From: an uncultured Saprospiraceae bacterium
GTDB taxonomy: Bacteria > Bacteroidota > Bacteroidia > Chitinophagales > Saprospiraceae
Assembly (NCBI GenBank): GCA_937929885.1
Contig: CALFUQ010000262.1
Location: forward strand, 1-40,100
Length of the DNA: 40,100 bases
Reading direction: 5' to 3'
Shown: piece by piece, positions 26,164-38,565 of the stretch
Position numbering within the stretch: the first letter of the stretch is position 1
Layout: each line of letters opens with the position of its first letter
Notes under the pieces: model-generated
Told to the model about the DNA's origin: nothing
Database searches by the model: none
What the model saw: the letters and a program-made list of their open reading frames with translations, nothing else
Made by a program: the position numbers and the translations under genes

Positions 26164-26619
26164 ATGCACAGATTATATTTTATCATTATACCAATATTAT
26201 TAATGCTTGTTGCATGCGGTGGAGATACTCCTGACAAAAAGCCAGTAAAAAAGGTAAAGAAAGCTACAAAGGAAGTAGCTGCTGCGAAATCAAGCCTTAA
26301 TGGTAAAAAGCTATATATGACTCATTGCTCAGTTTGCCATATGCCAAACGGACTAGGTATGAAAGGTGCATTCCCTCCTTTAGCAAATACAGAATGGACA
26401 AATGGCCCTGCTGAGGTTATGATAGATATAGTTCTCAATGGTTTTAATGAAGAGATAGAAATAAATGGTGATAAATATGTTACACCGATGGCGGCACTAC
26501 CGCATATTAAAGACGATGAATTAGCTGCTATCCTGACCTATGTTAGATCTAGTTTTGGTAATGAATCATCAGCAGTCACAGCAGAAGAAGTAGCAGTAGT
26601 GAGATCAAGAGGAAAATAA
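26164..26619 (+). CDS. Cytochrome c lipoprotein
   Basis: A 151-residue lipoprotein with lipobox LMLVA-C (Cys18), then a lysine-rich linker (KKPVKKVKKATKE, residues 25-37). The class I cytochrome c domain follows: haem motif CSVCH at 55-59, GLGMKGAFPPLA after it, and the axial methionine in YVTPMAALP near 117. The C-terminal helix DDELAAILTYVRSSFGN is typical. Anchored to a membrane, it would carry electrons in the periplasm or at the outer membrane. It stands 74 bp before the MDR oxidoreductase gene on the same strand; the partner oxidase or dehydrogenase is not identified. Confidence 0.88.
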   Translation: MHRLYFIIIPILLMLVACGGDTPDKKPVKKVKKATKEVAAAKSSLNGKKLYMTHCSVCHMPNGLGMKGAFPPLANTEWTNGPAEVMIDIVLNGFNEEIEINGDKYVTPMAALPHIKDDELAAILTYVRSSFGNESSAVTAEEVAVVRSRGK

Positions 26620-26692
26620 AAGCTATCAAAATAGAATAGTAAAGTTGATGAAGGTCAAATCTTAGTACTTAATAAATTATTACTTTCAGTTT

Positions 26693-27694
26693 ATGAAAGT
26701 AATCACAGTTAAAAGTCCAGGTGGGCTTGACAATCTAACAATAGTAGAAAAGTCTCATCCTACTCCCAAAGCCAATGAAGTACTGGTCAAGTGGCATGCA
26801 ACCTCTCTTAATTATCATGATTATTTAGTAGCAGTGGGTGGTATACCCGTGCAGGATGGGAGGATACCTATGTCTGATGGTGCAGGAGAAGTTGTCGAGG
26901 TAGGTGGAGATGTGATGGATTGGAAAGCTGGAGATAAAGTGATGTCTATGTTTTTCCCTGGTTGGGTAGAAGGAGAGCCAGCGCTTAGAAAAATTGCTGG
27001 TGTATCTGGAGAAACAATAGATGGATATATAGCGGAGATGTCATGTGTGAGTGCTGAGAGTATCACTAAAATTCCGAGTGGCTATACCTATGCAGAAGCA
27101 GCTACGCTACCTTGTGCTGGTCTCACAGCATGGAATGGACTTATGAACACTGGTAATCTACAAGCGGGTCAATCAGTTCTGATAGAAGGTACTGGAGGGA
27201 TGTCAATTTTGGGGTTACAACTTGCAAAAGCAGCTGGTGCTAAAGTATACGCAACAACCTCGTCAAATGATAAAGCAGAGCGTCTTAAAGAAATGGGATG
27301 CGAGGCTGTAGTTAACTACAAAGAAGACGAGAGATGGGGGAGGACGTTGTTCAAAATGACTGGAGGTATCGATCATGTACTTGATGTAGGAGGTGGCTCT
27401 ACAATGAAGCAATCAATCGAGGCAGCAAGGATCGGCGGATACATCACGGCTATAGGTATCTTAAGTGGTGGGAGAAAAGGAGAAATAACTTTTCCCAAGC
27501 TATTCTTCAAGTTCATAACTATGAAAGGAATCGCTGTAGGTAGTCGCAAGATGCAAGAGGCTATGGTGAATTCGATTAATATAAGTGGTATTAAACCTAT
27601 TATTGATAAAAGGTTTGCCTTTGATCAGTTAGCTGATGCATTTAGATATCAAGAGAGCGGCAAGCACTTTGGTAAGATCGTGTTAGAGTGGTAA
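26693..27694 (+). CDS. Zinc-free medium-chain alcohol dehydrogenase / quinone oxidoreductase family protein
   Basis: A 333-residue MDR-family NAD(P)-dependent oxidoreductase. The N-terminal GroES-like domain shows VLVKWHATSLNYHDYLVAVG, where zinc enzymes have Cys-Gly, and SDGAGEVVEVG near 60-70. The Rossmann domain has VLIEGTGGMSILGLQLAKAAGAKVYATTSS near 160-190 and LDVGGGSTMKQSIEAARIGGYITAIG. The usual catalytic and structural zinc cysteines are missing, so it is the quinone-oxidoreductase-like branch. The substrate cannot be predicted. It is convergent with the amidase gene, 33 bp apart. Confidence 0.85.
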   Translation: MKVITVKSPGGLDNLTIVEKSHPTPKANEVLVKWHATSLNYHDYLVAVGGIPVQDGRIPMSDGAGEVVEVGGDVMDWKAGDKVMSMFFPGWVEGEPALRKIAGVSGETIDGYIAEMSCVSAESITKIPSGYTYAEAATLPCAGLTAWNGLMNTGNLQAGQSVLIEGTGGMSILGLQLAKAAGAKVYATTSSNDKAERLKEMGCEAVVNYKEDERWGRTLFKMTGGIDHVLDVGGGSTMKQSIEAARIGGYITAIGILSGGRKGEITFPKLFFKFITMKGIAVGSRKMQEAMVNSINISGIKPIIDKRFAFDQLADAFRYQESGKHFGKIVLEW

Positions 27695-29582: not shown

Positions 29583-30026
29583 ATGAAGAAAACCATTGTC
29601 TTATATGGTTTAGCAATAGCGTTAATCTTACTTGTAATTCAAGTGTTTCAGTATCAGTTATTTGTCAAGTATATTTCTTTCGAGGTATTCATTGGGATAT
29701 TAGCGATGATATTCACAGTAATCGGGGTTTGGTTTGGGATAAGGTGGACGAGTCCTAAAAAAACGACAATTGCAAAATCTTCAACCAAAGTTTTAGTTTT
29801 TGGAGACCAATTGGGTTCATATGGATTAAGCAAAAGGGAAACCGAAATACTTGAACAGATCAACTTAGGTAAGACCAATCAAGAGATAGCGGACGAGTTG
29901 TTCATATCTCTTAGTACGGTAAAAAGTCATGTCTCAAATTTGTTTTCGAAGTTGGATGTCAAGAATAGGGTGCAAGCCATCCAAAAAGCAAAAGAACTAA
30001 CAAATACGGCTAGTACTAAAGTATGA
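29583..30026 (+). CDS. Membrane-anchored LuxR-type transcriptional regulator
   Basis: From the ATG at 29583 the protein has 147 residues. Two transmembrane segments lie at about 5-23 (TIVLYGLAIALILLVIQVF) and 34-56 (FIGILAMIFTVIGVWFGI). The C-terminal LuxR/GerE helix-turn-helix spans about 83-138: LSKRETEILEQINLGKTNQE, IADELFISLSTVKSHVSNLFSKLDVKNRVQA. There is no receiver domain, so the signal is probably sensed at the membrane. A longer frame from 29520 has no supporting feature. DUF4199 protein follows after 70 bp; this pairing recurs in Bacteroidota. Confidence 0.85.
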   Translation: MKKTIVLYGLAIALILLVIQVFQYQLFVKYISFEVFIGILAMIFTVIGVWFGIRWTSPKKTTIAKSSTKVLVFGDQLGSYGLSKRETEILEQINLGKTNQEIADELFISLSTVKSHVSNLFSKLDVKNRVQAIQKAKELTNTASTKV

Positions 30027-30096
30027 ATTGCAATAATTGGCACTTTAGGATGAGCAGATATTGAGATCTTGAGCATTACATTTGAAATAAAAAAAG

Positions 30097-30621
30097 ATGA
30101 AAAAGATTATTCTAATTTTCGGTCTGATATCAGGTGTCATTTGTGGTTCTATGTTTTTTATATTTCATCCGTCAGACGGTCAGATGGATTTCGAAAATGG
30201 AATGCTCAAAGGTTATATCACTATGAGCATAGCACTATCATCAATATTTTTTGCTGTCAAACAATATAGAGACAAATACAATGGTGGAAGTATAAAGTTT
30301 CTCAAGGCACTCTTGATGGGCTTGGCGATCACTTTAGTTGCGGGTATTGTGTATGTTATACTATGGGAAATTTATTATCAGAATTATGCTTCAGATTTTG
30401 CAGATCAGTATCTGGCTTATATCAAAGCACAGTGGGTTTCGCAAGGGATGGCTGCAGATGAAATAGCAAAACAAACAATAGCTATGGAACAAACTTTCGA
30501 ATCCTATACTAAGAACGCTATGGTTAGATTTGCGTTGACTCTTTTAGAGATTTTACCCGTTGGCTTACTTATCTCGATAATCTCTGCTGTCTATTGGGCT
30601 ATAATAAAGAAGAAGGCATGA
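30097..30621 (+). CDS. DUF4199 domain-containing membrane protein
   Basis: A 174-residue inner-membrane protein with four predicted transmembrane segments (about 3-24, 38-55, 68-92 and 143-168). The layout matches DUF4199: GLISGVICGSMFFIF, KGYITMSIALSSIFFAVKQYRDKYNGGSIKFLKALLMGL, then a soluble loop QNYASDFADQYLAYIKAQWVSQGMAADEIAK and a last helix. The function of DUF4199 is unknown. It is 70 bp downstream of the LuxR-type gene and probably cotranscribed, which suggests it modulates or serves the regulator (inference). Confidence 0.8.
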   Translation: MKKIILIFGLISGVICGSMFFIFHPSDGQMDFENGMLKGYITMSIALSSIFFAVKQYRDKYNGGSIKFLKALLMGLAITLVAGIVYVILWEIYYQNYASDFADQYLAYIKAQWVSQGMAADEIAKQTIAMEQTFESYTKNAMVRFALTLLEILPVGLLISIISAVYWAIIKKKA

Positions 30622-30740: not shown

Positions 30741-31868
30741 TTACATTTTAGCAATCCACTCCTTAATCAATTCAACCCCTTCATGATGCACTAGCTTTCG
30801 TCCTACCTCTGGCATCATTTCACCTGGGCTAGTCGCTTGCATTCTGTAAAGCATAATGGAGTTTTCTGGCTCTCCCTTCACGATATCATAAGGTCTACCT
30901 CCTGTACCTTTGCCTGCTGCGATGGGATGTTTGTTAATCCCTAGATGAAATTCATCAGTTTCTAGTTCTGTTAGGTGGAGTGCAGAGGTATTTCCTGGGC
31001 CTCCTTCTCGATGGCAGTGTGCACAATTCATATCCAAGTAGGCTAATGCTCTGCCGTGTAGGCTTCCGGTAGATGGATCATTCCAAACTGGTGATTTTCT
31101 AATGCTTGCTATATCAGGTAATCCTTTCAGTAGGCCCAAACCAGAATAGTGTGTGAGTTGATTCTTAGTACCACTTTCAAAAGCAAAATCTCTATTAAGT
31201 TGTCTTGCCTTTGGGCCTATAGGGGTTAGTATATTATTATTTACATGACAACTTTTACAGAGTACTTGAGAAGGAACACTGTAAGCTAGTTCCATTTGCT
31301 TGCCTTCCTTATTTACCCATGATATATCTTTAGTTGCTCCTTCGACAGTAAGGATGGCTTCTGTTTGCTCATCATTCCATACATAAGAGGGTAGTGTTTT
31401 CCAACCATCATCTTCTCTTAGTAGTAATCGAGTTTCCATGATGCGCCTTCCAGCATCCAAGTTCGTTTCATCATTATGATAGTAGAAGTTCTTAATGATG
31501 TAAGTCCCCACAGGAAAAGTTAAAACATCTTCCTCTCGATAAGTAATCGTTTCTCCTTCTGGTAATTTAAAGAACCTCATCTTATGAGAGTAGTCAGAAA
31601 ACAATGGAGTATTTAATTCATAAGGAATTACATCTGCTGAGGGTATCAGATCCTTTAGCGCACCAGCAAAGAACCCATACTCTGATAATTTTTCTAATCC
31701 AATATCTACGGTCTTACCTGCCGATTGTTGCTGCATCATTTTTCTTGCAGCTTCCATATCAGTAGTTACAGCTGTGACATCAACATCTTTTTTAGCTGGT
31801 GCACAACTTGACATACCCTTTAAAAAAGCAAACAAGAGAATTAAATATACGATAGACCTTATATTCAT
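30741..31868 (-). CDS. SO2930-family diheme c-type cytochrome lipoprotein
   Basis: A 375-residue lipoprotein (lipobox GMSS-C, Cys21). Two haem c motifs are present, CKSCH near 204-208 and CAHCH near 282-286. The N-terminal half has the beta-rich domain of the family: LSEYGFFAG (about 62), IPYELNTPLFSDYSHKMRF and GTYIIKNFYYHND (about 125-140). The end is GEPENSIMLYRMQATSPGEMMPEVGR...VELIKEWI. The family (TIGR03806, SO2930) occurs next to a parallel beta-helix protein (TIGR03805) in many Gram-negatives, and the pair has no known function. Here the beta-helix gene is directly upstream with a 6-bp gap. Confidence 0.86.
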   Translation of the reverse strand: MNIRSIVYLILLFAFLKGMSSCAPAKKDVDVTAVTTDMEAARKMMQQQSAGKTVDIGLEKLSEYGFFAGALKDLIPSADVIPYELNTPLFSDYSHKMRFFKLPEGETITYREEDVLTFPVGTYIIKNFYYHNDETNLDAGRRIMETRLLLREDDGWKTLPSYVWNDEQTEAILTVEGATKDISWVNKEGKQMELAYSVPSQVLCKSCHVNNNILTPIGPKARQLNRDFAFESGTKNQLTHYSGLGLLKGLPDIASIRKSPVWNDPSTGSLHGRALAYLDMNCAHCHREGGPGNTSALHLTELETDEFHLGINKHPIAAGKGTGGRPYDIVKGEPENSIMLYRMQATSPGEMMPEVGRKLVHHEGVELIKEWIAKM

Positions 31869-31874
31869 GTTGAT

Positions 31875-33212
31875 CTAGTTAGTAGAAAGAGAAAGTCCTT
31901 CTGCTTGTTTACACTGATTAGTAGACTTTGTTAGTTCAATATTTTTTGAGTCGTTGAGAATATCCAAGTTAGCTATCAAAAAATCGCTATCACTATTTAC
32001 GCAGATCGTATTACCGTCTGGGTTCGGTACTCCATCATACCATAGATGAGCATTTTTGCCCATTGTTGCTGCGGTGAATAAAGCACCATCTTTGCTTTGA
32101 AGCTTTTTCCTCAAACTTCCAAAGGACCATTCGTTATTCCTAATAGAAATATCTACGTTGTAAGGATTGTATTCTTTGTCCTTTGCATATGCTTCATTGA
32201 TATGATCTTCTCTTAGGCTTGCCTCTTCATCTGACCCAACTTCCATTCTTGCAAGTTCAGTTTCAGCAATAGGAACAAATTCTTTGTCTTTGGTCATATG
32301 GTAAGATGCTATGAAGCTAAACATAGCTACTGGGAATGGGTTGCCAGTGATCTGATTATCATAAATGTCAATATTCTTTCCAGCCCAAACTGTTATCCCA
32401 GTTCCAGGTACGGTAGATGCAGCAACATTACCAGCTGGAGCAAAATTATATAGTACATTGTTGTAAATCTTATTATCATGAATACGGACATTATCCATAT
32501 AGCGAGTAAGTCCAGGTATGTCCAAAGTCGTTATGCCTGATGTATTATTATAACATTCATTTCCATAGATATCAACATTGGCAGAATTCTCCACATTGAT
32601 ACCGCAAACATTTTCATGAGCGATATTGTTTCTGATCACAATATTTTCTGATTGACCTATATATAATCCAGAGTCAGAGCCTCTCATTGCTTCACAGTTT
32701 TCTATTAATACATTTTTACAGATCACAGGATATATTCCATAAGCTCCTAGTGATTCATTGGGCACATCTGTCCACTCAGTTTTGATGTGTCTGAATGTAA
32801 GTGTATCAATATATATTGCCTTTACATTATCACCAATGGCATCTTGAATCGTAAACCCTTCCAAGGTGATATTATGACCATTGGCAACTCTGATACCTTC
32901 TGCCCCCTCTGTCTGACCTCTGAAAGAGAGTACGGTTTTATCTAATCCTGCTCCTTTGATAGTAATATTGTTTTTACCGTCCAAGATGAGCGCTTTAGTA
33001 AACTTGAAATGCCCTGCAGGTAATTCTATCGTTTCACCATCTTTGGCTAACTGAAATAGTTTCTGAAAATCTGATTCTAGATCAACATATTCTGCTAGAG
33101 ATTTTTGTGGCCTGTCCTCATAAACTTGATAGTCTGCAACAAACCACCAGATCAGTCCAGCAATTAAAAATATAGCCAACGCAAAACCTATATATTTTAG
33201 AATCTTCATCAT
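31875..33212 (-). CDS. Parallel beta-helix domain protein (partner of the SO2930 cytochrome)
   Basis: A 445-residue exported protein with an N-terminal hydrophobic anchor or signal (YIGFALAIFLIAGLIWWFVA, residues 7-26). The beta-helix runs from about 55 to 330. It shows repeated N-rich turns typical of right-handed parallel beta-helices: NNITIKGAGLDKTVL, NITLEGFTIQDAIGDNV, NVLIENCEAMRGSDSGLYIG, NIVIRNNIAHENVCGINVE, NVDIYGNECYNNTSGI, NVRIHDNKIYNN, NIDIYDNQITGN. The fold resembles carbohydrate-acting enzymes, but no catalytic set is evident. It starts the two-gene unit with the diheme cytochrome and is divergent from a TetR gene, with two palindromic sites in the 143-bp gap. Confidence 0.86.
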   Translation of the reverse strand: MMKILKYIGFALAIFLIAGLIWWFVADYQVYEDRPQKSLAEYVDLESDFQKLFQLAKDGETIELPAGHFKFTKALILDGKNNITIKGAGLDKTVLSFRGQTEGAEGIRVANGHNITLEGFTIQDAIGDNVKAIYIDTLTFRHIKTEWTDVPNESLGAYGIYPVICKNVLIENCEAMRGSDSGLYIGQSENIVIRNNIAHENVCGINVENSANVDIYGNECYNNTSGITTLDIPGLTRYMDNVRIHDNKIYNNVLYNFAPAGNVAASTVPGTGITVWAGKNIDIYDNQITGNPFPVAMFSFIASYHMTKDKEFVPIAETELARMEVGSDEEASLREDHINEAYAKDKEYNPYNVDISIRNNEWSFGSLRKKLQSKDGALFTAATMGKNAHLWYDGVPNPDGNTICVNSDSDFLIANLDILNDSKNIELTKSTNQCKQAEGLSLSTN

Positions 33213-33239
33213 GTCTGATTTTTTTGATTATCCTAAAAT

Positions 33240-33290
33240 ATGAATAATTGCTCATTATTCAATTATTAAAATGAGTAAAAGCTCATTTTA
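33240..33290. promoter_or_regulatory. Two operator-like palindromic sites between beta-helix and tetR genes
   Basis: The sites ATGAATAATTGCTCAT (33240-33255) and ATGAGTAAAAGCTCAT (33271-33286) share 13 of 16 bases, 31 bp apart, about three helical turns. The second is the core of a perfect 9-bp-arm inverted repeat, TAAAATGAG / CTCATTTTA (33267-33275 and 33282-33290). The first overlaps a perfect 8-bp-arm repeat, TGAATAAT / ATTATTCA (33241-33248 and 33254-33261). Position between divergent genes suggests binding by the adjacent TetR regulator. Confidence 0.6.
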
Positions 33291-33355
33291 CTTAAAAAAA
33301 TCATACTTTGATAGTAAGTTTATTATGTCTACGTGAAAAAATTACATATTATTTT

Positions 33356-33988
33356 ATGGTGAAGGGAAAAAATGTATTGCAGCCAAAGCAGAAAAGAAGC
33401 ATAGCTACTAAACAGAAGATCAAGAAAGTAGCAATGAAATTATTTTCAAAATCAGGATATTATTCAGTGACCTCAAATATGATCGCTGCAGAAGCAAATG
33501 TGCCTATCGGAAGTTTTTATAATTACTTTAAAAACAAGAAAACCTTGATGCTAGAGTTAACCAAGGACTTTAATGCAGGATATCATGATGATACTTTTCA
33601 AAAATATCTTGATATTATAGATTCGACAGAAAGAAGTGAAAATCTATTGAGTGGAGTTGAGAAATCAGTAGAGTTATTTTTATCATCTAAATATTTATCT
33701 AACCCTATTTATAAAATTATTCACTCTTTACAATTTACAGAACCAGATATCCTTGAACTTTCAGAAGAAGTTAGAAAGGTGGAACTTGAATTGATTGACC
33801 AATTTCTTAAGCAGGTGAATACTTTTCATCCGATAAAGAATATTAGGTTAAAAGCCAAACTCATACATAGTTCCGTTGAAAATGTAGGGTTATATATTCA
33901 CCATTTAGGCACTTCATTCAATCAGAAACAATTGATAAAGGAAACTGCAAAGATGTTATATGGATACCTCATATTAGATAATAATTGA
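33356..33988 (+). CDS. TetR/AcrR family transcriptional regulator
   Basis: From the ATG at 33356 the protein has 210 residues; a TTG 16 codons upstream adds only an unsupported hydrophobic start. The N-terminal TetR_N helix-turn-helix is clear: TKQKIKKVAMKLFSKSGYYS, VTSNMIAAEANVPIGSFYNYFKNKKTLMLEL (about 18-68). The C-terminal ligand-binding domain is all-helical without known motifs. It is divergently transcribed from the beta-helix / diheme cytochrome pair. Tandem palindromes in the shared gap make it the likely repressor of that unit and of itself (inference). The inducing ligand is unknown. Confidence 0.88.
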   Translation: MVKGKNVLQPKQKRSIATKQKIKKVAMKLFSKSGYYSVTSNMIAAEANVPIGSFYNYFKNKKTLMLELTKDFNAGYHDDTFQKYLDIIDSTERSENLLSGVEKSVELFLSSKYLSNPIYKIIHSLQFTEPDILELSEEVRKVELELIDQFLKQVNTFHPIKNIRLKAKLIHSSVENVGLYIHHLGTSFNQKQLIKETAKMLYGYLILDNN

Positions 33989-34350: not shown

Positions 34351-37300
34351 TTAATATTTTCCTGTTAATTCTACTCTTCTATTTTGTTGTCTTCCTTCTC
34401 TTGTAGAGTTATCAGCTACTGGTCTGTATTCTCCTTGACCAGAAGATGTCAGTCTAGTTGCGCTAATTCCTTTTGACTCCAAGTACGTTTTAACAGCCAT
34501 TGCTCTATTGATAGATAGATCAAGATTTCTGTTTTCATCACCTACATTATCAGTATGTCCTGTGATTGTAACCTTAAGTCCTGGATCAGCCTGCATGATA
34601 CTCACTACCTCATCAAGTATTGCATAAGAATCACTTCTTAATACTGCTTGACCAGTTTCATACTGGATACCTCTTAATGCTCTAGTAAATACTGATGTTG
34701 TTGCAGCAGAAACTGTTTTCACTTTCGGGCAACCGTTAGAATCAATATCACCACCTCTCTTAGGACACTTATCATCTTTATCCGCAATACCATCATTATC
34801 GCCATCAGGGCAACCATTTACTTTACCAGCAGTATCAGGGCAAGCATCTCTGTCATTAGGTACTCCATCTCCATCACTATCAGATGGACAACCATCAGCA
34901 CCATCACCAGCAGTAGTAGGACACTTATCATCTCCATCAGCTACACCATCGCCGTCACCATCGGGACAACCAGATACCTTACCAGCTGCATTAGGACACT
35001 TATCATCTCTATCTGCTACACCATCACCATCTGCATCTGGGCAACCACTTAGTGTTCCCGCAGCATTAGGACATCTATCATCTTTGTCTGCTACACCGTC
35101 ACCATCACCATCAGGACAACCCATGAGCGTACCGGCTACATTAGGACAATTATCATCATTGTCTATTACACCATCACCATCGCTGTCTGGGCATCCACCA
35201 TTCATTGCATCACCTGCTGCCATTGGGCAATTGTCATCACTATCTTTTATACCATCACCATCGCTATCAGGACAGCCATTAAACGCTTTAAGTCCTGCAA
35301 TGTTAGGACACATATCCTTAGAATCTTTAACACCATCTCCATCTGCATCTGCAGGTCCGTCTGCGCCAAATGTATAAGTCAATTTACCGATTACCCTTCT
35401 ACCTAGTTTAGGCATGTTAGGATAGTATCTGTATTCTGAATCAAATAAGTTCTGAGCTGTAACGTCTAGTGCTAATCCATTGTCAAATCTATATCCAACC
35501 CCCGCATCTACAAGATTACGCTCTTCTGTATCTCCAGAAAATTGACCTAAGAATACCTCATAGGTAGGATCATGCTGGAATGCCGCATTACCTCTCCATC
35601 CAAATTCTGGAGCATAAGTAAATCCTGCTCGTACCTTATTAAGAGGCGCACTATTAGAAGTTCTTTCTGTAGCTCCATCACTTCCTGAAATTACAGGATT
35701 AAAAACATTGTCTGATAGGTATGAATAATTAGTAAATAGAGATAAATCTTGATTTACATAGTACTCAAGCCCTGCATCTATACCAGTATAACTAAAATCT
35801 TCAAATGTTCTATAACCTGCTGATAAGTGAGTTACTCCATTCTGAGGCACCCCATCTGCAGGAACCGTAGCTAGGATATTACCAGCACTTAAAGGTCCTA
35901 TCGCACCTGCAAATCCATCTCCACCTGCAGTATATGCACCTGCAATGGCTGCAAGTAAGGCATCCGCCGTCGGTCCTGCAGCGGGACTAGCTGCACCACC
36001 GAAAAGATTAAACATAAAGTCTCTAAGGCCAGGTGATGCTACTTGTCCAGCTAGCCCAGCTCCTAAGCCTTCTATACCAGCAAGTGAATATCCTGGACTA
36101 ATCGCTGTGAATAATGTCGCACCAGTTGTTTTCTTGTTATAGATATCAATCATCACACCCAACTTATCTGCAATCAAACCTTTATAACCTATTTCCCAAG
36201 TATCTTCTGTTCTAAGCTGAGCTGCAGGTGCATCTTGTATACCTAATGGTTGGCCATTAAATAAATTTGTACCTACGAATGTACCTGTAGTTCCGCCTGG
36301 AGTATTTGCAGGATCGTTAATGTATCCTTGGATCGCTCCAGCTATCTGAGTTGCTTGACCTTGTGCAGTTGCAGCTGCTGTAGCAGGATCAAGGCCAGCA
36401 GCCAATAATTGTTGTTCAATTCCTGGTGCTAAGCTTCCTATCAATCCTGGTACTAATTGAGCTTGGACTGCTCCATTTACCGCACCGAAAGTATAAGCAT
36501 TAGGCATTCCTGGTGTACCTATAGGCAAAGATGGCAGACCCAATAAACCATTAAATACAATCTGCGTATTATTAAACGTCTGTGCTCTTTTATTTCCAGT
36601 CAACCAAATATCTCCACCTGGGAAACCAGCTACTGGGAAATCAATATTAATCTGTAGTTGTGAAGGTGATGCAACTGCTCGGTTAAAACCACCTCTAAAA
36701 GTATGTCTAGGTGATGGCTTGAATACAGCAACTGCTCTTGGCTGAAATGCAGTCTCATCTATAAAACTGAATTGATCAACTCTACCTGCTAAGACGATAT
36801 CTAACTTTGGCCCTAACGCAAATTTACCTTGTAGGTAAGCTCCGACGATTCCAAAATCATCGTCGTCTTCTTCTCGTCCATAAACACTATTACCAGTATC
36901 TGCACTCGAGTTTCTGTAATCTACACCAGCAGTAAAGTTAGAATTCAACAAACTAGGTAAATCAAAATTATATTGAACTTGTGCTTCAGTTTGTGTTCTG
37001 CTAATCCCAGTAGTATTTCCAGTTTGATATAACCAAGTCGGAGCATCATCCGTTCCCCCATTATTAGTTAAAACAAACGCTTGAGCGAAAAGCCCTCCTT
37101 TTTGCATTCTTAACTGTCCATAGAATTCTCTTGCCTGACTTAATCCTTCGCCTTGAGAATTATAAAATACTGAACTTGCTGCGTTTGTTCCACCCGTTGC
37201 TATTATGGATAAGTCATCCTGTGGTCTAAATTCAAGAGTAGCATTAATTAGATTATTAGTCCAAAAGTCTTGCATAACATTACCATCACCATCGGGATCT

Positions 37301-38286
37301 AGGTCTGCCTCGCCGAGTAATTGAGTACCTGCTGCTGATCCATCAACTATTCCTCCCACAATTGCAGGGTTTGAAACGGTCTTACTAAATCTTGCAATCT
37401 GTATTGCGTCAGCTGTATCATTAGGGTCTAATGTGAATTCTCCCCCTTTCTTGTATGAAGCATTAATCTTAAATCCGAACTTATCGGATACTTTTGTTGC
37501 ATGTCTTATAGTTCCACCGAAAGTAGATAATTCTCCACCCATCAGTTCTACCGTAGTTCCTGGATTATCAATAGCTGATTTAGTGATGAAGTGAACAACT
37601 CCTGATGTTACCCCTGGCCCATAAAGTGCAGAACCTGGTCCTCTTACCACCTCTATTCTTTGCATGTCAATGTTACTTAATGGAGAGTTAATAGCATCAA
37701 ATGTTCCTAATCCAGGACCTGATAAAGATCGATAATCAATAATAGGGAATGAAGCTGATCCAAAAAGACCACCATCACCTCTCAATTGAATATTAATCCT
37801 TTCTGCAGATTGCTGCTGGATAGTTACACCTGGCATACTTAATAGTTGCCTAGCAGGGTTTGTCGCTGCTGGTGTTGCTGCCATTTTTCGAGCACTTATC
37901 ACCGATATCGATGCAGGTGCTTCTTGTACTTTCTCCCTTCTTCTAGATGCAGATATTACTACATCATCAGTAAGTAGAAGTCCTTCCATCAGGTTAATGT
38001 TACCTACATTACTAGAGGTCGCCGACATAGTTTTTGTAGCGTATCCTGTATAACTAATCTCCAAATCCACAGGAAGTGATCTAGATGTATTGATCTCAAA
38101 CGTACCGTCAAAATCAGTTATAGTTCCTTCAGAAGTTCCTGCTACCAATACATTGGCACCAATGAGAGCTTCTCCTGTAGCATCATCTGTAATGACACCA
38201 CGAATAGTAGTCTGAGCAGATAGCCCAAAACAAACAATTGTTAATAGTAGTACAAGACTACTTTTAATAGTTTTTCCAATAATCAT
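34351..38286 (-). CDS. TonB-dependent receptor fused to TSP type-3 repeats and an OmpA peptidoglycan-binding domain
   Basis: From the ATG at 38286 the protein has 1311 residues; the frame is open 13 codons further up, but MIIGKTIKSSLVLLLTIVCFGLSAQ is a textbook signal. Order: CarboxypepD_reg-like domain (about 26-105, GVITDDATGEALIGANVLV); plug (about 110-240, with APASISVISARKM, LLSMPGVTIQQ, EVVRGPGSALYGPG); a 22-strand-type barrel to about 970, ending in the terminal beta-signal GKLTYTF. Eight TSP3 repeats follow (DxDGDGVxDxxDxCPxxAG, about 978-1180), then an OmpA-like domain (about 1195-1311, ITGHTDNVGDENRNLDLS and INRAMAVKTYLESKGI). The barrel end faces the periplasm, so the tail can reach peptidoglycan. 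Substrate unknown; two Ala/Gly-rich loops interrupt the barrel. Monocistronic with its own terminator. Confidence 0.9.
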   Translation of the reverse strand: MIIGKTIKSSLVLLLTIVCFGLSAQTTIRGVITDDATGEALIGANVLVAGTSEGTITDFDGTFEINTSRSLPVDLEISYTGYATKTMSATSSNVGNINLMEGLLLTDDVVISASRRREKVQEAPASISVISARKMAATPAATNPARQLLSMPGVTIQQQSAERINIQLRGDGGLFGSASFPIIDYRSLSGPGLGTFDAINSPLSNIDMQRIEVVRGPGSALYGPGVTSGVVHFITKSAIDNPGTTVELMGGELSTFGGTIRHATKVSDKFGFKINASYKKGGEFTLDPNDTADAIQIARFSKTVSNPAIVGGIVDGSAAGTQLLGEADLDPDGDGNVMQDFWTNNLINATLEFRPQDDLSIIATGGTNAASSVFYNSQGEGLSQAREFYGQLRMQKGGLFAQAFVLTNNGGTDDAPTWLYQTGNTTGISRTQTEAQVQYNFDLPSLLNSNFTAGVDYRNSSADTGNSVYGREEDDDDFGIVGAYLQGKFALGPKLDIVLAGRVDQFSFIDETAFQPRAVAVFKPSPRHTFRGGFNRAVASPSQLQINIDFPVAGFPGGDIWLTGNKRAQTFNNTQIVFNGLLGLPSLPIGTPGMPNAYTFGAVNGAVQAQLVPGLIGSLAPGIEQQLLAAGLDPATAAATAQGQATQIAGAIQGYINDPANTPGGTTGTFVGTNLFNGQPLGIQDAPAAQLRTEDTWEIGYKGLIADKLGVMIDIYNKKTTGATLFTAISPGYSLAGIEGLGAGLAGQVASPGLRDFMFNLFGGAASPAAGPTADALLAAIAGAYTAGGDGFAGAIGPLSAGNILATVPADGVPQNGVTHLSAGYRTFEDFSYTGIDAGLEYYVNQDLSLFTNYSYLSDNVFNPVISGSDGATERTSNSAPLNKVRAGFTYAPEFGWRGNAAFQHDPTYEVFLGQFSGDTEERNLVDAGVGYRFDNGLALDVTAQNLFDSEYRYYPNMPKLGRRVIGKLTYTFGADGPADADGDGVKDSKDMCPNIAGLKAFNGCPDSDGDGIKDSDDNCPMAAGDAMNGGCPDSDGDGVIDNDDNCPNVAGTLMGCPDGDGDGVADKDDRCPNAAGTLSGCPDADGDGVADRDDKCPNAAGKVSGCPDGDGDGVADGDDKCPTTAGDGADGCPSDSDGDGVPNDRDACPDTAGKVNGCPDGDNDGIADKDDKCPKRGGDIDSNGCPKVKTVSAATTSVFTRALRGIQYETGQAVLRSDSYAILDEVVSIMQADPGLKVTITGHTDNVGDENRNLDLSINRAMAVKTYLESKGISATRLTSSGQGEYRPVADNSTREGRQQNRRVELTGKY
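34735..35355 (-). repeat. Eight tandem thrombospondin type-3 repeats (coding)
   Basis: Within the receptor gene, eight units of about 22-26 residues follow the pattern DxDGDGVxDxxDxCPxxAGxxxGCP. Each has one calcium-binding Asp cluster and a Cys pair. The DNA shows a recurrent unit containing the reverse complement of GATGGTGATGG. The repeats form a rigid calcium-dependent linker between barrel and OmpA domain. Confidence 0.9.
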
Positions 38287-38565
38287 TTTAGTAAATTTTG
38301 ATTGATTCCAAAGGCAAAATATCATTTTATTTGGGCAAACTGTACTTTATCAATAACAAAAACTTAACTCCAAGTAAAAATTAGAATTTATCCATTGTTT
38401 GTGTTTACAATCATATCCTATCTATAAGAAATGAATAGCGGAATAGATAAGCTTTAAATCAAAGTATTCTGCTCATATGCAAAATAGGATTCTGTTTTAA
38501 CCCTATAATTTCTGTTAAACAGAAGATTATTTTAACATAATGATTGTTAATAGCTATACTGATAA

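Follow-up and report, generated by a model that had tools for sequence, protein, structure and literature searches.

Sections of a published account (PMC11928373) describe the P460 superfamily as oxidizing hydroxylamine (NH2OH) or binding gases and assign, in the M. capsulatus protein, the distal cap to Arg50 and the heme-cross-linking lysine to Lys78. Part of the section that places known P460/c′-β sequences assigns them to proteobacteria and does not name the SO2930 family (PMC11928373). Partial texts of the few publications that mention SO_2930 and SO_2931 call them predicted outer-membrane cytochromes and give no function, and a literature search with the family accessions TIGR03806 and TIGR03805 and with the protein names returned nothing functional. 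Here we describe a pair from these two families, a cytochrome (CYT) and a β-helix protein (BH), in a 40,100-nucleotide stretch of an uncultured Saprospiraceae bacterium (contig CALFUQ010000262.1, positions 1 to 40,100; the window). Tentatively, we favour a reading in which CYT and BH are a two-part periplasmic (extracytoplasmic) oxidoreductase for a glycan-like substrate, repressed locally by a divergent TetR-family regulator. We propose here a P460-like reading of CYT heme 1. The two genes are:

30741-31868, minus strand: CYT, 375 aa, an SO2930-family diheme c-type cytochrome and predicted lipoprotein (Cys22).
31875-33212, minus strand: BH, 445 aa, a TIGR03805 right-handed parallel β-helix protein whose N-terminal helix (residues 2-26) is read as a membrane anchor.

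BH lies upstream of CYT across a gap of 6 bp. CYT scores 374.9 bits against the curated NCBIfam cut-off of 313.3 for TIGR03806 and BH 282.9 bits against 141.5 for TIGR03805, bearing out the family assignments of an initial annotation made from the sequence alone. The same annotation held that the two families recur as a pair of no assigned function, and this agrees with the partial literature described above and with the distribution found here. TIGR03806 is above cut-off in about half of the sampled Bacteroidota relatives (19/41) and is matched at E ≤ 1e-60 in about a tenth of the sampled Pseudomonadota genomes (41/399). BH adjoins or is fused to CYT in roughly 80 of 102 Bacteroidota loci and in 45/45 Pseudomonadota loci examined, except two in which CYT is fused to a pyrroloquinoline quinone (PQQ) sugar dehydrogenase domain (GSDH). 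Six loci (L182, L183, L184, L215, L216 and L217) encode both proteins in a single open reading frame of 880-1019 aa. The fusions and the near-obligate pairing argue that CYT and BH act together, possibly as a physical complex. Two of the six (L182 and L183) carry an extra, separate CYT gene after the fusion, which may be equivalent to the SO_2931-SO_2930 arrangement of Shewanella. The window genome itself holds a second BH-CYT pair (L024; contig 288, 1712-6872), whose BH gene is overlapped over 26 bp by a TonB-dependent receptor gene.

The AlphaFold2 model of CYT (mean predicted local distance difference test (pLDDT) score 93.9) is divided into an N-terminal half, a P460/c′-β-like β domain that holds heme 1 (C204-H208), and a C-terminal half that is class I cytochrome c-like (PF00034) and holds heme 2 (C282-H286, with the invariant Met352). 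Two CXXCH motifs, at C204 and C282 in the window protein, are present in 71/71 aligned members. When the heme-1 domain is searched against 350,542 PDB chains, the top three matches are all P460/c′-β proteins, at E 0.19-0.35. Profile alignment (hhalign) of this domain with P460 gives 40 bits, and 38 bits with the heme motif left out; none of 90 shuffles exceeds 24.8 bits, and unrelated families give 14-18. Three alignment methods agree in placing R98 on McP460 Arg50 and K126 on Lys78, and the 28-residue spacing of that P460 pair recurs between R98 and K126 in 133/153 CYT domains. K96, R98, K126, E145, T146, R147 and W164 are invariant throughout (153/153 domains, including those fused to GSDH). 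The P460 family profile PF16694 is matched weakly in 27/71 CYT members, with a best E of 6e-4; some of these matches cover a region lacking the heme motif, and window CYT does not have the profile among its matches at E ≤ 10.

CYT shares with P460/c′-β proteins a predicted β-rich domain ending in CXXCH, lysine at the cross-link position, arginine at the cap and a conserved P-x-G and Trp. It differs in scoring below the Pfam gathering threshold, in a longer insert ahead of CXXCH, in the additional class I heme c domain and in having Arg147 at the position of the distal carboxylate. Because of this arginine, CYT is not a standard hydroxylamine oxidase; for the same reason, and given the gathering score, we describe it as working like the P460 fold or as derived from it, without classing it as a cytochrome P460. 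Heme 1 seems to occupy a catalytic pocket like that of cytochrome P460, and the pair may thus be enzymatic and do more than carry electrons. CYT has a lipobox-like ...MSSC22. It had been annotated as an anchored electron carrier, a description that needs revision: given the P460-like domain of heme 1 and the Lys, Arg and Glu residues invariant in it, CYT probably does more than carry electrons. Among the papers searched, none named P460 together with a β-helix. Elsewhere in the window, at 26164-27694 (plus strand), a small cytochrome c lipoprotein encoded beside a zinc-type alcohol dehydrogenase-like gene is a candidate electron acceptor for CYT.

The P460-like domain, with its cross-linking lysine position and arginine cap, might also be expected of a protein whose heme 1 handles hydroxylamine, nitric oxide or peroxide as P460/c′-β proteins do, given that sections of the published account attribute hydroxylamine oxidation or gas binding to the superfamily (PMC11928373); BH would then be structural and TetR would sense a related stress. 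This is distinctly unlikely in our judgement, since Arg147 stands at the catalytic carboxylate position, the neighbourhoods scanned around pairs showed no nitrogen-cycle genes and the enzyme-like β-helix would be left unexplained.

BH is modelled by AlphaFold2 as a right-handed β-helix (pLDDT 89.9). Its closest solved structures by Foldseek are AlgE4 (E 1.3e-9) and AlgE6, both mannuronan epimerases, the Vibrio polysaccharide lyase RbmB, PL6 lyases and AlgG. Profile alignment with AlgE4 (E 1.2e-4; the AlgE4 sequence used was checked against its PDB entry) places K131 on K117 and Y158 on Y149, two residues that, together with H154 and D152, we take to be catalytic in AlgE4. The initial annotation's β-helix "of the carbohydrate-active type" is supported by these neighbours and by this alignment. 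A set of polar residues (Q100, D128, Y158, Y161, D180, Y184, Q187, E208 and N209) is invariant in 59/59 BH sequences. Against the AlgE4/AlgG and PL6/RbmB enzymes, BH is distinguished by Val163 and Tyr161 at catalytic positions, by a different C-terminal part and by its cytochrome partner; the AlgE motif YGFDPH reads YGIYPV here and so lacks the catalytic histidine.

Such fold neighbours, the conserved Lys/Tyr/Asp/Glu face and the polysaccharide genes of some pair operons could mean that BH is the enzyme, a relative of polysaccharide lyases or epimerases, and that CYT, anchored in the membrane, carries electrons independently and merely shares its operon. We consider this very unlikely in view of the near-obligate pairing and fusion of BH with CYT and of the missing AlgE histidine. 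BH also matches PF05048 (NosD; E 2.6e-10), as might be expected if the pair were a NosD-like metal-delivery or maturation system. The matched element is a generic β-helix repeat, however, and no nos genes turned up next to any of the pairs scanned; TIGR04247, the NosD family proper, gives 28.9 bits against a cut-off of 300, on which grounds we rejected NosD membership of BH. A role of this kind is hardly credible.

The window pair belongs to a clade with L039, L050 and L051 (support 99 on the CYT tree, a quick tree) whose members depart from the wider families. As a TIGR03806/SO2930 protein, window CYT is above cut-off, has both heme motifs and is paired with TIGR03805, whereas the CYT proteins of its clade depart at residues 202, 203, 296 and 331. 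BH likewise exceeds its TIGR03805 cut-off and adjoins TIGR03806, but of 58 positions nearly invariant among the 55 sequences outside the window clade, the clade proteins depart at 11 (the median for a sequence is one), E206 to N among them, and window BH has the N-terminal membrane helix as a further difference. Judged by this conservation pattern, window BH belongs to an enzyme-like family and has been remodelled. A broader proposal, which we advance as doubtful, places the SO2930 family within the P460 superfamily as a branch not recognised so far. Its members would combine a Lys-cross-linked catalytic heme with a class I cytochrome c and an obligate β-helix partner that binds glycans, forming a new class of heme-based oxidoreductase; the TetR-controlled Saprospiraceae clade would be a sub-type with a remodelled BH active face.

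Sugar-related genes accompany some of the pairs. CYT-like modules that fall under the TIGR03806 cut-off are fused to GSDH in L047, L048, L218 and L219. Some of these fusions carry carbohydrate-binding modules; domains of the NPCBM, F5/8-type C or ThuA type are seen in some. In L050, a locus of the window clade, a GSDH gene is found on the far side of TetR, and in L064 and L066 one comes immediately after CYT; the window genome has six GSDH matches away from the pair. The fused modules, though distant, liken the system to quinohemoprotein sugar dehydrogenases, from which the window pair differs in having BH in place of GSDH. CYT could accordingly be only the electron-transfer partner of separate GSDH-type quinoprotein sugar dehydrogenases, with BH a scaffold or docking protein, a view consistent with the four fusions, the three loci with adjoining GSDH and the six matches elsewhere in the genome. 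We regard it as unlikely: nearly all pairs lack an adjoining GSDH, BH-CYT fusions occur without one, and the invariant K96, R98, K126, E145, T146 and R147 around heme 1 resemble an active site and exceed what electron transfer needs.

TonB receptors are enriched near pairs (30 of 552 nearby genes compared with 9 of 817 farther away). The gene immediately after CYT encodes a sulfatase in nine loci (L073, L075, L085, L086, L088, L092, L097, L101 and L107); a TonB receptor gene often comes next, and sugar oxidoreductase or isomerase genes often precede BH. Some pair operons include GH88, GH92, Gfo/Idh/MocA or xylose-isomerase-like genes. No single enzyme neighbour is conserved across the loci; sulfatase, GSDH, Gfo/Idh, P450, amidase and others occur only in subsets. 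Because many loci have unrelated neighbours, the glycan association of the pairs is a tendency and not a rule.

In the two-part oxidoreductase that we favour, a glycan-like substrate would be bound along the conserved polar face of BH, whose build is like that of uronate epimerases and lyases. Heme 1 of CYT, P460-like with its invariant lysine at the cross-link position and its arginine cap, would perform or directly assist the redox chemistry, the lysine being a candidate for a covalent cross-link to the heme, and heme 2, a class I heme c, would pass electrons onward to the respiratory chain. The divergent TetR would bind two operators about 30 bp apart and keep its own gene and the pair repressed, and a small ligand would release it. 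The oxidative processing of an extracytoplasmic substrate proposed in the initial annotation thereby gains indirect support, probably with a more active role for the cytochrome than was assumed there; the chemistry, the substrate and the inducer are inferred.

Several observations pull the other way. The Foldseek E values to P460/c′-β (0.19-0.35) are not significant alone; the PF16694 gathering score of 27 bits is not reached, the best individually viewed member (L200) scoring 20.6 bits; and all three alignments put R147 at the P460 distal carboxylate position, with E145 nearby. In BH, V163 and Y161 replace the AlgE4 catalytic His154 and Asp152, and position 206 is Asn in the window clade but Glu in 55/55 others. 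No PF07995 (PQQ GSDH) match came from the window proteins scanned in the vicinity of the pair, and neighbours of the pairs vary widely and are often unrelated to sugars.

New here are the P460/c′-β resemblance of the heme-1 domain, a BH closest to AlgE/AlgG and PL6/RbmB but without the catalytic histidine, the BH-CYT fusions and GSDH-fused CYT-like modules, and the departures of window-clade BH. A widespread pair of no assigned function is thereby made testable through the candidate residues named for a P460-like heme, a partner fold, natural fusions and a defined local operator. If the favoured reading is true, P460-type heme chemistry, so far one of NH2OH oxidation and gas binding, would reach beyond its present range to include an extracytoplasmic redox system of very different bacteria.

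The regulator and its candidate operators lie on the far side of BH:

33356-33988, plus strand: TetR-family regulator, divergent from the pair, with an alternative TTG start at 33308.
33241-33254, no strand: candidate operator 1, TGAATAATTGCTCA, conserved in L039, L050 and L051.
33272-33285, no strand: candidate operator 2, TGAGTAAAAGCTCA, 31 bp from operator 1 and conserved in the same three loci.

A divergent TetR gene with palindromic sites had been part of the initial annotation, and both elements stand: the protein matches PF00440 (TetR_N helix-turn-helix; E 2.4e-12, 46.9 bits against a cut-off of 24), and the sites are kept in 4/4 clade members. The window palindromes, between BH and TetR, take the form TGARTAAnnRYTCA and are 31 bp apart; each of the four clade intergenic regions has two palindromes of the form [TC]GARYAwnnnYTCA at a spacing of 29-31 bp. 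Two sites arose in 0/4000 dinucleotide shuffles of each of these four regions. A lone palindrome is not significant, with 7 matches in the 4.1-Mb genome compared with 10 for a control pattern, and the two window palindromes are the only pair of sites sharing one contig in that genome. Since the site count does not exceed the control and only five other exact sites exist (three of them within genes), TetR looks local, and a wide regulon was rejected. Repression and the sensing of a ligand would follow by analogy with TetR biology.

A TetR gene occupies the equivalent place in 4/4 clade loci, the proteins of L039, L050 and L051 being 48-61% identical to that of the window; searching viral contigs with TetR recovered no relatives. 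Conservation of TetR beside the pair, anticipated by the initial annotation, holds within the clade and fails beyond it: most family pairs, including L024, are without TetR. A divergent TetR beside BH reappears in seven alphaproteobacterial loci (L109, L175, L176, L181, L186, L192 and L193), which have in common a TGAA-N5-TTCA palindrome between the two genes, of a geometry unlike the Saprospiraceae operator. Five of the six occurrences of this palindrome in 93 kb of five such loci fall in the TetR-BH gap. Because these seven loci carry a different operator at the equivalent place, TetR control has recurred among the pairs. Joint descent of the pair and TetR across phyla is unsupported: on the CYT tree, Bacteroidota surround the Saprospiraceae clade and at least five changes of the TetR trait are needed.

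Beyond TetR, 34351-38325 (minus strand) encodes a 1,324-aa fusion of CarboxypepD_reg, a TonB-dependent receptor, thrombospondin-3 repeats and OmpA, with a terminator-like site (34319-34294) between it and the TetR gene. We rejected this receptor as a member of the unit, given the terminator-like end and its absence from beside the pair in L039 and L050. On the other flank, two genes at 29583-30621 (plus strand), the first for a small membrane protein bearing a LuxR-type helix-turn-helix and the second for a DUF4199 membrane protein, are likely a regulatory pair.

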